NCBI GenBank assembly: GCA_030605475.1
Contig: JAUWIG010000011.1
Location: forward strand, 62,001 to 126,000
DNA from: Planctomycetota bacterium
Lineage (GTDB): Bacteria > Planctomycetota > Phycisphaerae > Sedimentisphaerales > Anaerobacaceae
DNA: 64,000 nt
Reading direction: 5' to 3'
Within the stretch, counting starts at the first letter, position 1. Each line of letters opens with the position of its first letter. Below, in pieces: positions 31,548 to 59,866 of this stretch. Both the position numbers and the translations under genes were made by a program. The notes under the pieces are model-generated. The model was not told the origin of the DNA. It searched no databases and was given only the letters and a program-made list of their open reading frames with translations.

Positions 31548-31573
31548 CAAGTTGCACACCCTGCCTTGCTAAA
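31548..31573. repeat. 26-bp repeat at gene 3' end (copy 1)
   Basis: CAAGTTGCACACCCT followed by (G)CCTTGCTAAA. The second copy is at 32684-32708. Each overlaps or abuts the stop codon of a minus-strand accessory gene. Confidence 0.65.
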
Positions 31574-32528
31574 CAATCGTTGCACAAATTCTATTATAAA
31601 GCTTTTTATGCAAGTCTTCTGGAGAATCATATACGATGTGATTGTACTGTCTTGTGTCAAAATGCAATTTTTTAACATCATCTTTCTTAACGGTGAAAAT
31701 AGTAGGCCTGCCTAATCCTTTAGCAAAACCAGCCTCAAAATATACCCCTCCTCTTTGTCCAGAGAAATCTGATATAAGGAATTTGCAGCGTTTAATTTCG
31801 GCAATGATTTCATCGCAAATTTTCCCATTGAAATCCTGTAGGTCGATTCTTACTGCGATATAACCAGCATCTTCGATTGCTTGCTTAATACCATTTTTAT
31901 AGTAAGCATCCATTGATTCGTCAAACCACATAGCAACAAAAACACGTTTGCTATCTATCGCTGTCTGTTGCAGACTTTCGACTATCTCCCAGCACTTTGC
32001 AGTAAGATTTATATCACGGTCATCTATGTCATTACAGTCGCACCTTATTAATTCTTGCTCAACCAACTCCCTGATAATGGTTTCACAAGCTGTTTTATCC
32101 AAAGCAAATAGATGCAGTCTATCTGCTGATGTGTCATAGATGTTGAGCTGAATAATATCGAACGGTCGTTCAGATAATCGGCTCAAATTAAGAAGTGTTC
32201 TATTAAGAAAATCACTGGCTTTTTTTGGAAACTCATCCAAAATATCATCGACAGAAACCTGAGGATAGCTACAAACCTTGTCCACCTTATCTGTCTTATT
32301 ACTCAATGCTATGCCGCCCAGTCCTTTTAGCCGTCTTTCGTTCAAAATACAGGCTATTTTGAACTTATTCTTCGTTTCATTGATATGAGAATTACGCTCT
32401 ATAAAATGGTGATTGAGTAAATATGGCCCACAGTACTTGCATCTATAATCCTTTACATTGTGCATAAGGGGAGCAGTATATATTTCGCATTCACTGCCAC
32501 AGAAAAAACAATTTTTATCTTCGCTCAT
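31569..32528 (-). CDS. Zinc-ribbon protein with nucleoside deoxyribosyltransferase-like domain
   Basis: 319 residues. N-terminal zinc ribbon with CxxC pairs C7/C10 and C30/C33. The middle (about 40-190) is unrecognised. The C-terminal domain (about 195-315) begins KRVFVAMWFDESMDAYY and continues with CKFLISDFSGQRGGVYFEAG and FAKGLGRPTIFTVKKDD, matching the nucleoside 2-deoxyribosyltransferase/TIR-like fold with its catalytic Glu in YFEAG. Such domains are used in metabolism and in nucleotide- or NAD-attacking conflict proteins. The ATG follows GAAAGGAG. It sits in a repeat-flanked accessory island, so a defence role is possible but unproven. Confidence 0.7.
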   Translation of the reverse strand: MSEDKNCFFCGSECEIYTAPLMHNVKDYRCKYCGPYLLNHHFIERNSHINETKNKFKIACILNERRLKGLGGIALSNKTDKVDKVCSYPQVSVDDILDEFPKKASDFLNRTLLNLSRLSERPFDIIQLNIYDTSADRLHLFALDKTACETIIRELVEQELIRCDCNDIDDRDINLTAKCWEIVESLQQTAIDSKRVFVAMWFDESMDAYYKNGIKQAIEDAGYIAVRIDLQDFNGKICDEIIAEIKRCKFLISDFSGQRGGVYFEAGFAKGLGRPTIFTVKKDDVKKLHFDTRQYNHIVYDSPEDLHKKLYNRICATIV

Positions 32529-32572
32529 TCAAAGACTCCTTTCACATATCCTCCTAACAATGATTATAAAAC

Positions 32573-32645
32573 GTACAACACAGACTTCTTTCTTCATAAC
32601 AAGTTCCCGTTGGTTCTTCAATATTTATCCGCCTATGGCGGACTC
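32573..32645. repeat. Upstream flank repeat (copy 1) with small hairpin
   Basis: Sequence from AACG..ACAA..AGACTTC to ATTTATCCGCCTATGGCGG, upstream of the 31569-32528 gene. It aligns over about 70 nt with 33418-33489. The hairpin CCGCC-TAT-GGCGG differs from copy 2 (CTGCC-TTAA-GGCAG) by a paired base change. Confidence 0.65.
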
Positions 32646-32669
32646 GTCCAATTTCTTTTATTAAATGAT

Positions 32670-32708
32670 TCCGCGTGTGCAAACAAGTTGCACACCCTAC
32701 ATGGCTAA
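32670..32708. repeat. 3'-end repeat (copy 2) with GTGTGCAA hairpin
   Basis: 32684-32708 repeats the 31548-31573 sequence (CAAGTTGCACACCCT, then TGGCTAAA). Here it is preceded by GTGTGCAA, giving the stem GTGTGCAA / TTGCACAC with a short loop, just after the stop of the 32713-33372 gene (minus strand). Confidence 0.6.
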
Positions 32709-32712
32709 AGTC

Positions 32713-33372
32713 CTATTTCCGACAACCGATTGTCTCGACGCAAATCTTCTCGATATCCAACACTAGTTTATCAACCTTCCTGAGTACCGTGTCCTCCGTA
32801 TCTGACGCCTCATCATCAAACCCATCGATTTCTCTCGCTATTTCCTCCCAGATTTCATTGAGGTCATCGTTATACTTACCAGAGTCACGTTTCCTATAGT
32901 GTTTGCGACGGAGATTCTTAATCCGAAGGAGTAGCTTCCGGTACGGCCTGGAAATGTCAAACCTGACGTTGCTCAGTTTCTCCAGCAAGTCGCCTGCATC
33001 TTGGCCATTCTGTGCCATGAAACGATAGCGCAAGGAACGAAACCTGGCAAAAAGCTCAGGACGATTGCTACACATTTCTATTTGTATAAATGCTTCATTA
33101 AGCATCCGAGTCTCAGCTTCTGTCTCATCGGGCGATTTCTGACGTGATGAGCCGTCGCCCTCACGACTCAGCGGCATTCTCACAGCCTCATAGAAGTCTT
33201 TTGCTTCATATGCCAGTGCCAAGACGTTCTCTGCCAGGTCAATGCGCTTCTTTCCAACATGTTCCCGACGCCACGTCATGATGCCCCAGACTGCAACTAC
33301 CGCAGCGCCTATGGTTGCCATAGCGCTGACTACCGGTATGATGATACTTGACGTAATCTGAAGCCAATTCAT
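32713..33372 (-). CDS. Membrane-anchored helical protein of unknown function
   Basis: 219 residues. One N-terminal membrane helix (SIIIPVVSAMATIGAAVVAV, about 9-28), then a cytoplasmic, charged, mostly helical domain with Arg/Lys-rich YRKLLLRIKNLRRKHYRKRD. No enzymatic motif. Short single-pass helical proteins of this style are common hypothetical genes in accessory regions. The ATG lacks a strong ribosome site. Its flanks are homologous to those of the neighbouring accessory gene, although the two proteins are unrelated. Confidence 0.65.
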   Translation of the reverse strand: MNWLQITSSIIIPVVSAMATIGAAVVAVWGIMTWRREHVGKKRIDLAENVLALAYEAKDFYEAVRMPLSREGDGSSRQKSPDETEAETRMLNEAFIQIEMCSNRPELFARFRSLRYRFMAQNGQDAGDLLEKLSNVRFDISRPYRKLLLRIKNLRRKHYRKRDSGKYNDDLNEIWEEIAREIDGFDDEASDTEDTVLRKVDKLVLDIEKICVETIGCRK

Positions 33373-33417
33373 GGCAATATCTCAGATGCCCGAACAATCA
33401 TTAGCTACTTCATATAG

Positions 33418-33489
33418 AACGGGACAAAAGACTTCATTCTGTATAAGAAGTTTCCGTCGTTTCTTCATTATTTATCTGCCTTAAGGCAG
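33418..33489. repeat. Upstream flank repeat (copy 2) with small hairpin
   Basis: AACGGGACAAA, AGACTTC, AAGTTTCCGTCGTTTCTTCA and ATTTATCTGCCTTAAGGCAG, upstream of the 32713-33372 gene. Aligns with 32573-32645 at roughly four of five positions in its central 48 nt. Confidence 0.65.
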
Positions 33490-33626
33490 TTTTCATATCC
33501 CGTCATTATACCCAATCCCTCAATTCCCGCCTTTTAATTCGTATCTCCCTTCCCTTCGATTTCACTCAGGGTAAACTCCCAAGCTCAGGGTAAACTTATC
33601 TCGTGAAGCGTATCTCGTGGCTGAGA

Positions 33627-33657
33627 TCCTTCGACTCCGCTGCGCTTCGCTCAGGAT
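33627..33657. repeat. TCCTTCGACT...GCTCAGGA inverted repeat
   Basis: Ends TCCTTCGACT and GCTCAGGA around a GC-rich centre. Related copies lie at 54964-54984, 62167-62190 and 63077-63195. This interspersed palindrome is seen in many bacterial genomes. Confidence 0.6.
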
Positions 33658-58759: not shown

Positions 58760-58825
58760 TGCCCCTTGCCTTTTCACTTCTTTTGTGTTATTTTCTGTGC
58801 CTAAAGGCGTAATAAGGATACGAAG

Positions 58826-58855
58826 TTGTTTGGCGGGTTATACAGACTGTATAAT
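58826..58855 (+). promoter_or_regulatory. Sigma-70-type promoter of the three-ORF operon
   Basis: -35 TTGTTT (58826-58831), 18-bp spacer, perfect -10 TATAAT (58850-58855). Confidence 0.6.
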
Positions 58856-58880
58856 CATTGTTCGAATGGGAGAATAGACC

Positions 58881-58988
58881 ATGACCGAGTTAAATGAAGA
58901 AAGGATGCTGGAACTGATCTCCGGTGAGGAATCCGAATCAGTCGAGTTCAAGACGGCCATCTGCCTTAAGGCGCGAAAGGGACATTGA
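58881..58988 (+). CDS. 35-residue AlbA_2-like fragment
   Basis: ATG at 58881 with GGGAGA upstream and a promoter before that. The product MTELNEERMLELISGEESES continues VEFKTA, which matches the opening of AlbA_2/Schlafen-like DNA-binding domains (x-x-E-S-x-x-x-E-F-K), then diverges and stops. Either a truncated remnant of a larger AlbA_2 gene or a leader peptide coupled to the next ORF, whose ATG lies 3 bp after the TGA. Confidence 0.5.
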   Translation: MTELNEERMLELISGEESESVEFKTAICLKARKGH

Positions 58989-58990
58989 CG

Positions 58991-59866
58991 ATGGCATCAC
59001 CAGTCCTAAGCTCTCAGGATACCTGCTCCGTATGTGGTGCTCCTCTCGAAGCCACTATGCGGCACTGTCCCACATGCAGGACCGACGCCGGTGCCCCGAA
59101 TGTTCGGCGCTGCCGCACCGATGAGAATCTGAAAGCCCTGGCTGCAAGGTTTGATGATGCACAAGCCAGAGCTTCTGCAAGCGGCTGTGCGAAGGAGTTC
59201 AGCGATTTAGCTGATATGGTAGAGAACAAATCTGGTGTTGTAGTCGCTATGCCAGCACAGGTGGCGATGGCACTATTCCAGGACCCCAACTCGTTATACA
59301 CGAACTACGAACAGTTGGTAGGTGCCAACGTGCGAAAGCCTGCAGATTTCGACAATGATCGGCAGCGATGCGGAACGGTGGGAGTACTGTTCGGAAGCTA
59401 TGCGAAACACATAGCGTATGGTGCATTGTCCCTGACAGAGGAAGGTTCACCCACTTATGGTGACGTCCACTGTCGATTGCGCTCTGTCACTATTGATAAG
59501 CGCACTTCTTTCCTTGTAACGAATAGTTACAGATTCGTCCGGGATTATAGCATCGTTGCTGGGGACAAGTTACCGGCTGGTTACATGGCATGCTGGAATC
59601 ACCGGCACAGTCTTGTTCTTGCGAAACTGGCGGACCGACTTTCAACTGGACAGACCGAATCTGATTGGCTGGTGCTCCTCATTCAGTCGGACGGCAAGGA
59701 TCGACAGAATGATGATTTCGTTGAAGCTCAAATTTATGAGGGTTTCGATAGAAACGCTATCGAGTCTATGGTAGCAACCACCGGTAAGATCTTGAAAAAA
59801 GCTGATAAAATGTTCTTTAAATTAGCTATTTCCGAGTTCAAACGTCTTGGAGGGACAACGAAATGA
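58991..59866 (+). CDS. Zinc-ribbon protein of unknown function
   Basis: 291 residues from the ATG at 58991 (AAAGGGAC 7 nt upstream). N-terminal zinc ribbon CSVCGAPLEATMRHCPTCRT (about 12-31). The rest, about 60-290, is globular and unrecognised: MPAQVAMALFQDPNSLYTNY, GSPTYGDVHCRLRSVTIDKR, NDDFVEAQIYEGFDRNAIES. The TYGDVH...SFLVTNS...VEAQIYEGF order is faintly like ADP-ribosyltransferase folds, but I would not assign it. Its stop overlaps the TPR gene by 4 nt, so the two are translationally coupled. Confidence 0.65.
   Translation: MASPVLSSQDTCSVCGAPLEATMRHCPTCRTDAGAPNVRRCRTDENLKALAARFDDAQARASASGCAKEFSDLADMVENKSGVVVAMPAQVAMALFQDPNSLYTNYEQLVGANVRKPADFDNDRQRCGTVGVLFGSYAKHIAYGALSLTEEGSPTYGDVHCRLRSVTIDKRTSFLVTNSYRFVRDYSIVAGDKLPAGYMACWNHRHSLVLAKLADRLSTGQTESDWLVLLIQSDGKDRQNDDFVEAQIYEGFDRNAIESMVATTGKILKKADKMFFKLAISEFKRLGGTTK

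Follow-up and report, generated by a model that had tools for sequence, protein, structure and literature searches.

The window, by which we mean the whole 64-kb stretch of DNA that was analysed (G000:C13:62001-126000), is part of a 2.4-Mb genome, G000, that is assembled into 58 contigs and is 91% complete. Two genes, A and B, lie on its reverse strand, each having an upstream flank that aligns with that of the other, and each having a copy of a 26-bp repeat near its stop codon (Table 1). A sequence-only reading of this DNA had taken the genes to be unrelated and their repeated flanks to be real, and both points hold: gene A and gene B have no Pfam or PADLOC family in common, and the 26-bp repeat and the upstream flanks both lie far above chance. 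Local alignment of the flanks (32645-32556 against 33489-33393) gives a score of 41.0, compared with a mean of 10.6 (sd 2.1, maximum 22.5) for dinucleotide shuffles, none of which reaches the observed value in 1000 trials. Between its two copies (31548-31573 and 32684-32709) the 26-bp repeat shows 88% identity, and a pattern fitted to both finds 2 matches at no more than 3 mismatches, against a mean of 0.00 in 100 shuffles.

Gene A matches no family in the Pfam, PADLOC or NCBIfam scans. Gene B matches a PADLOC TIR effector (E 8.2e-10) and, below the cut-off of that family, Pfam Nuc_deoxyrib_tr (E 0.0062); CxxC motifs are visible by eye at its N-terminus, and homologues occur in 20 other genomes of the 89 in the window's family (E 1e-10). 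A third site of the same type lies elsewhere in the window on the forward strand. A short ORF begins closer to it, at 58881, than the 293-aa ORF, whose match to a double zinc ribbon is weak and below cut-off. Within positions 58766-58882, a promoter-like TTGCCTTTTCACTTCTTTTGTGTTATTTTC stands ~70 nt 5' of this site's box and resembles stretches that precede boxes at two other loci, L144 and L158; the cassette start at the third site is nearly identical in L158. Dispersed repeats occupy 33540-33640, 5' of the array, and 33540-33604 is 97% identical to positions 5508-5572 of L039.

Table 1. Features mapped in the window; attI sites and cassettes are assigned from sequence.
Feature	Position	Strand	Basis or remark
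attI copy 1, 5' of gene A	33393..33489	-	Profile match 33469-33413, E 2.2e-6; alignment to copy 2
Crossover G|TT of attI copy 1	33395-33393	-	Reads GTTCGGG; core box degenerate
Candidate cassette gene A, 219 aa	32713..33372	-	ORF; hydrophobic N-terminal stretch judged by eye
REP-like hairpin (GTAGGGTGTGCAACTTGTTTGCACACGC) and 26-bp repeat	32673..32709	-	3' of the gene A stop codon
attI copy 2, 5' of gene B	32556..32645	-	Profile match 32619-32556, E 9.5e-7
Crossover G|TT of attI copy 2	32558-32556	-	Reads GTTAGGA; core box short by 11 nt
Palindrome TCCGCC-TAT-GGCGGA within attI copy 2	32628..32642	.	Stem of the sequence-only reading
Candidate cassette gene B, 319 aa	31569..32528	-	C-terminal half TIR-like / nucleoside deoxyribosyltransferase-like
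26-bp repeat, copy 2	31548..31573	-	REP-like hairpin, left half only; array end
Third site, attI-type	58827..58862	+	Profile E 9e-8; exact 24-nt core box 58839-58862
ORF, 293 aa, 3' of third site	58985..59866	+	TTG start listed

The repeated site and its integrase

A copy of the flank on contig C48 of G000, searched in 60 genomes (its own and relatives), found matches in 36, and these separated two modules, one REP-like and one ending in the 24-mer TATACAGACTGTATAATYATTGTT. Exact copies of this 24-mer, which we call the box, turn up in 78 stretches from the GTDB collection; the records are titled Planctomycetota, Brocadiaceae, Desulfobacterales, Sumerlaeota, Actinomycetes, Hakubella, Terriglobia, Chloroflexi, Tectomicrobia and a Woesearchaeon, labels that for metagenome-assembled genomes (MAGs) may mislead through contamination. 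The box is also present on one viral contig. Across several bacterial lineages, whole and reduced copies of the site precede single genes that are unrelated to one another, mostly with no integrase gene close by. When up to 2 mismatches are allowed, the box is found in 47 of 89 genomes of the window's family and in 21 of 392 genomes of a phylum sample, among them G000, with 18 of the other 20 belonging to family f53; a reversed control pattern gives no match in either set.

A profile scan around the boxes, which left out stretches shorter than 300 bases, revealed an integron integrase (IntI) signal 5' of 26 of 84 exact boxes, whereas a search of the reverse strand gave 0 of 84 and the downstream control 1. 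In 15 of these 26 the box begins 144-147 nt past the end of the IntI match, and in 3 it begins 10 nt past that end; two of the 15 (L132 and L185) depend on brief alignments to the central part of the profile, and one further match (L202) lies 1.1 kb from its box and is probably unrelated. At L126 (JABTVC010000004.1), a complete IntI gene stands co-oriented 5' of the site, its product scoring 472 bits against TIGR02249 (cut-off 265) and matching IntI4 of PDB entry 2a3v at E 1e-85. This tyrosine recombinase adjoins the site at L126 and, in interrupted form, at L171 and L172; none adjoins it in the window's genome. The two interrupted genes are near-identical copies within one MAG, and the reading frame of each is missing its central part (profile coverage 3-161/242-327 and 3-170/238-327).

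Passages of PMC3607928 describe intI transcribed toward attI in Treponema, and passages of PMC9668308 a semi-conserved archaeal attI immediately downstream of intI; given this arrangement and the IntI 3' ends to the left of the boxes, we call the site attI. A Xer/dif-like site was also considered, its palindromic core resembling a tyrosine-recombinase site, but was rejected because the adjoining recombinase is IntI. The attI of L126 has no match in the plasmid and phage collections.

Several loci vary on this layout. IntI genes of G011, G021 and G023 have no site of this type 3' of them within the available stretch. Two genomes of the window's own family, G104 and G110, carry intact IntI genes (L273 and L274) with different attI-like ends, ..TAATTACTGTTGGCGCC and ..CATATACATTGTTAGATG, indicating that other attI subtypes exist in the family. 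At L161 (Desulfobacterales, JAUUWG010000022.1), three attI-type sites stand in tandem, preceded by IntI-like C-terminal remnants, with a TIR-domain-like ORF upstream and classical-attC-like stretches after genes. A divergent extra site at ~6990-7010 of L174 ends in AATTATTGTTAGGC and is followed by another ORF.

To compare the window with such sites, we used a 174-position profile built from 19 sites that lie 3' of an integron integrase gene or remnant in other lineages. These are named loci, of which L127, L139 and L166 are labelled Planctomycetota only, and labels alone cannot bar a member of the window's family; because L126, L171 and L172 come from one MAG, the 19 are not all independent. 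In the 64-kb window the profile has only three significant matches, at the two flanks and the third site, and a fourth match (E 0.034) overlaps the third site on the opposite strand; no match occurs in 40 dinucleotide shuffles or in the reversed window. Judged by these alignments, the upstream flanks are identifiable as decayed copies of an integron attI site.

Crossover point and cassette ends

Comparison of 151 distinct sites places the crossover within GTT. The comparison used 346 pairs whose similarity reaches 80% or more across the 60 nt left of the box but stays below 60% from +4 to +43. The second condition itself favours a drop, although just 3 pairs resemble each other on both sides. 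In the 346 pairs, identity is 0.995 at GTT, ~0.46 at +1 to +4 and ~0.27 beyond. The bases after GTT are R at 133, R at 115, R at 115 and Y at 115 of the 151 sites, giving the integron crossover core, GTTRRRY, to which neither of the two window flanks is a full match. One cassette, starting GGATGCAGAAAGATAAAGGAG, stands behind different left halves in L063, L069, L070 and L079 (3 pairs), and is 95% identical over 312 bp between G000:C19 and G022:C112. Genes tend to start close downstream of the site: at 108 of 132 sites an ORF of at least 60 aa begins no more than 60 nt downstream, whereas 28 have one in the other orientation and random positions average 50.8 (maximum 62).

Two further candidates for exchange were set aside. 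A 287-aa gene present in duplicate, on contigs C10 and C53 of G000, is not bounded by GTT on its 5' side, and so lends no support to the crossover; the 88% block shared by its copies ends within the tail after a REP-like repeat. A cassette common to G022 and G034 (91%) begins inside a truncated attI left half and not at GTT.

The earlier proposal that the two genes are cassettes exchanged at conserved borders is therefore borne out for the upstream border, where the similarity of 346 pairs ends at GTT and one cassette follows several left halves. Its companion claim, that the borders do not fit the attC consensus of integrons, was right in that they are not attC-like, but they do match attI 3' of IntI, with a crossover at the integron core GTTRRRY. 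Because the GTT boundary is sharp, we infer that circular cassettes would have been inserted by IntI at the G|TT of the attI copies, in which case sequence to the left of GTT would be site and that to the right cassette.

The stop-proximal border is a different matter. The 26-bp repeat had been taken as a matching 3' border, a view that we abandon: the upstream and stop-proximal borders are not a matched pair, the former being an attI copy and the latter a separate REP-like hairpin that is also found where the attI site is missing. We presume a likeness to REP elements from the GTAG before a short hairpin and from variants that keep pairing (left arm GTGTGCAAC versus GGGCAAC, right arm GCACAC versus GCCCAC). 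In the window the hairpin is whole at ~32673-32700 and present by half at 31548-31566; in G000 the repeat sits after accessory genes, with a tail that is mostly GGAATCATTYAATAAA. Set against REP elements that have REP-associated transposases, G000 offers a single weak Y1_Tnp match (PF01797, 27 bits), at G000:C24:17767-18042 (L212), possibly such a transposase.

The compensatory hairpins that had been described within the upstream flanks (CCGCC/GGCGG at ~32628-32642 and CTGCC/GGCAG at ~33476-33489) do exist, but structural constraint on the stem was dropped as an explanation since such palindromes are dispersed. A hairpin of this kind, followed by GATAAATATT, is found in G000 away from the attI site as well, and the stem thus looks like a dispersed palindrome lying inside the border rather than part of it. 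Between genes of G000, and away from attI, there are further copies of the palindrome TCCGCC..GGCGGATAAATATT (L010-L013, L015 and L017).

Classical cassettes would carry an R'' complementary to R' behind the gene. After 16 of the 84 sites were dropped (no ORF, or a cut one), an exact 7-nt complement of R' was found in the interval from -60 to +150 nt around the stop codon at 22 of 68 genes, compared with a mean of 2.07 (maximum 8) when R' was shuffled among sites; L154 and L167 being near-identical, these 22 are not all independent. In the window's family (52 sites, 5 dropped) the match occurs at 4 of 47 (control mean 0.54, maximum 3), and such ends are absent at 43 of these 47 family sites and at both window genes, indicating that classical attC is missing there. 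Several family genes instead run into the next attI. Gene A is followed by the REP-like repeat and then by attI copy 2; since it ends at an attI and not an attC, its layout (attI-gene-attI) resembles the DeltaattI type. The REP-like module joined to attI was considered as an attC and set aside as unlikely: the one site folded gave no convincing hairpin, and the module also occurs alone, with variants that keep pairing.

These data bear on two other accounts of the sites. It is unlikely that they are an unusual attC and the array an ordinary CALIN, that is, a cluster of attC sites lacking an integrase. Such an account would suit the position of sites between genes in tandem arrays and the 36-nt inverted arms of a full site in L161, but it is at odds with sites directly 3' of IntI genes, with the separate complementary R''/R' ends that come after cargo genes, with outer arms that do not pair as R''/R', and with the fold of one Phycisphaerae site, whose z is only -1.55 and -0.76 on the two strands. 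Less probable still, and by our estimate very improbable, is an account unrelated to integrons, in which the flank, as a MITE- or REP-like mobile element, brings a promoter or regulatory sequence to the 5' side of genes: the fixed 144-147 nt between the IntI end and intact copies (15 of 26), the stop of similarity at GTT with RRRY next, and the complementary R'' at 22 of 68 downstream genes all speak against it, even though the site core contains TATAAT, copies are dispersed and often single, and in G000 they are accompanied by the REP-like repeat and the palindrome.

Apparent absence of the integrase, cargo and relation to known integrons

No match to TIGR02249 in G000 exceeds the cut-off or reaches E 1e-30, an absence that in a 91% complete genome could reflect assembly gaps. 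IntI above cut-off is present in 14 of 67 box-carrying genomes, and in 4 of 47 within the window's family. We located hisI in 29 of 31 genomes searched (30 loci); an attI match within ~1.5 kb of it occurs at the window's own hisI only, and no hisI locus offers an orthologous empty site with a full left half. With attI beside hisI in G000 alone, the array looks like a lineage-specific insertion; with both of its sites damaged and no above-cut-off IntI in the genome, it is probably a relic that no longer functions.

Some copies elsewhere appear to derive from complete integrons by internal deletion. When aligned to L126, loci L138, L150, L154 and L186 share a junction, 315|1275, with the same 6-nt overlap, position 315 lying in the leader before intI and 1275 near the intI 3' end; the coordinates of L250 fit this junction, and a second one, 251|1405, is common to L129, L177 and the first copy in L174. 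In the leader stands TTGCATTCTTCTTCATTTTTGTATTATCATC, or a sequence close to it, which also precedes intI in L171 and L172. Chiefly in anammox planctomycetes, intI is thus deleted to leader plus attI, with the identical breakpoints in several copies and genomes that are typical of MITE-like elements. The single-contig genome G199 has two stub-attI units whose sequences agree at 98.3% over 240 nt and diverge directly past GTT. The five boxes of G355 occupy separate loci, on either strand, and three of these boxes follow C-terminal remnants of IntI.

The shared junctions and the copies in G199 and G355 suggest non-autonomous units, and the near-identity of the G199 copies suggests movement as a unit through a recombinase acting in trans. 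Vertical inheritance followed by cassette turnover may also account for the shared junctions, given that every carrier of either junction bears the label Brocadiaceae, Brocadia or Planctomycetota. We therefore put forward only tentatively, at somewhat under an even chance, the idea of mini-integrons: intI-deleted units in which the intI promoter/leader is joined to the last intI codons and attI (or to attI alone), and which would spread in a MITE-like way through an integrase provided in trans, each capturing and expressing different single genes, the window's array being a worn member. Least probable of all the accounts considered is that cassettes entered secondary, attG-like genomic sites singly and share a flank through target-site preference only, because, while most G000 copies are isolated single genes on different contigs and IntI1 is mentioned in a passage of PMC12901181 as inserting cassettes into genomic attG sites, the left sides hold attI sequence well past a short target (profile alignments in the window span 36-78 positions) and the two units of G199 agree far into it.

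A scan for further cargo covered ten more proteins encoded close to site or REP-like copies in G000. Matches above Pfam cut-offs are to FRG (with PADLOC PDC-S15), HNH_5, HepT-like and TPR families, those below cut-off to a Cthe_2314-like HEPN and a double zinc ribbon, and four proteins have no match in the domain scans. A bias of the cargo toward defence is plausible, its role in defence being presumptive. Close homologues of gene B elsewhere have attI nearby in 1 of 5 cases (L341).

Overall, we consider it highly likely that genes A and B are cassettes of an integron array that has decayed, lacks an integrase and has an attI copy ahead of each gene. The attI-gene-attI units would have formed through attC loss, the integrase having acted in trans or been lost; loss of intI and then decay of the sites would have come later. 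IntI as the maker of the insertions, and the route by which the sites multiplied, are what we infer from these patterns. Integron searches target intI and attC, so that attI-only arrays would be missed, as the window array nearly was; our literature search found no paper joining integron, attI and Brocadia, and no title or abstract opening describing attI-only platforms. Should the deletion derivatives be mobile, a genome could keep promoter-attI landing pads at numerous separate loci, and cassettes could then be expressed without one long array. If true, this would change the picture of cassette capture in uncultured planctomycetes, anammox bacteria and desulfobacteria. L126 provides a named intact IntI/attI pair.

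Among known systems, the integrons of Treponema and archaea share with these sites an attI 3' of intI and cassettes co-oriented with intI, but here many copies of attI have no intact intI beside them and often retain a remnant of its 3' end. A CALIN, a term used in passages of PMC9668308, resembles the array in having cassettes in a genome without an integrase, but is defined by attC, whereas the site repeated here is attI. The array can also be compared with the attI-ORF-DeltaattI cassettes that PMC12901181 counts at 96 in 1,685 class 1 and 14 in 57 class 2 integrons. There they form a small minority, in arrays beside the integrase, whereas in one planctomycete family 43 of 47 tested sites lack a classical R'' and 43 of 47 carrier genomes lack an above-cut-off IntI. 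In both settings, a partial attI replaces attC behind the gene, and the length of attI retained varies.
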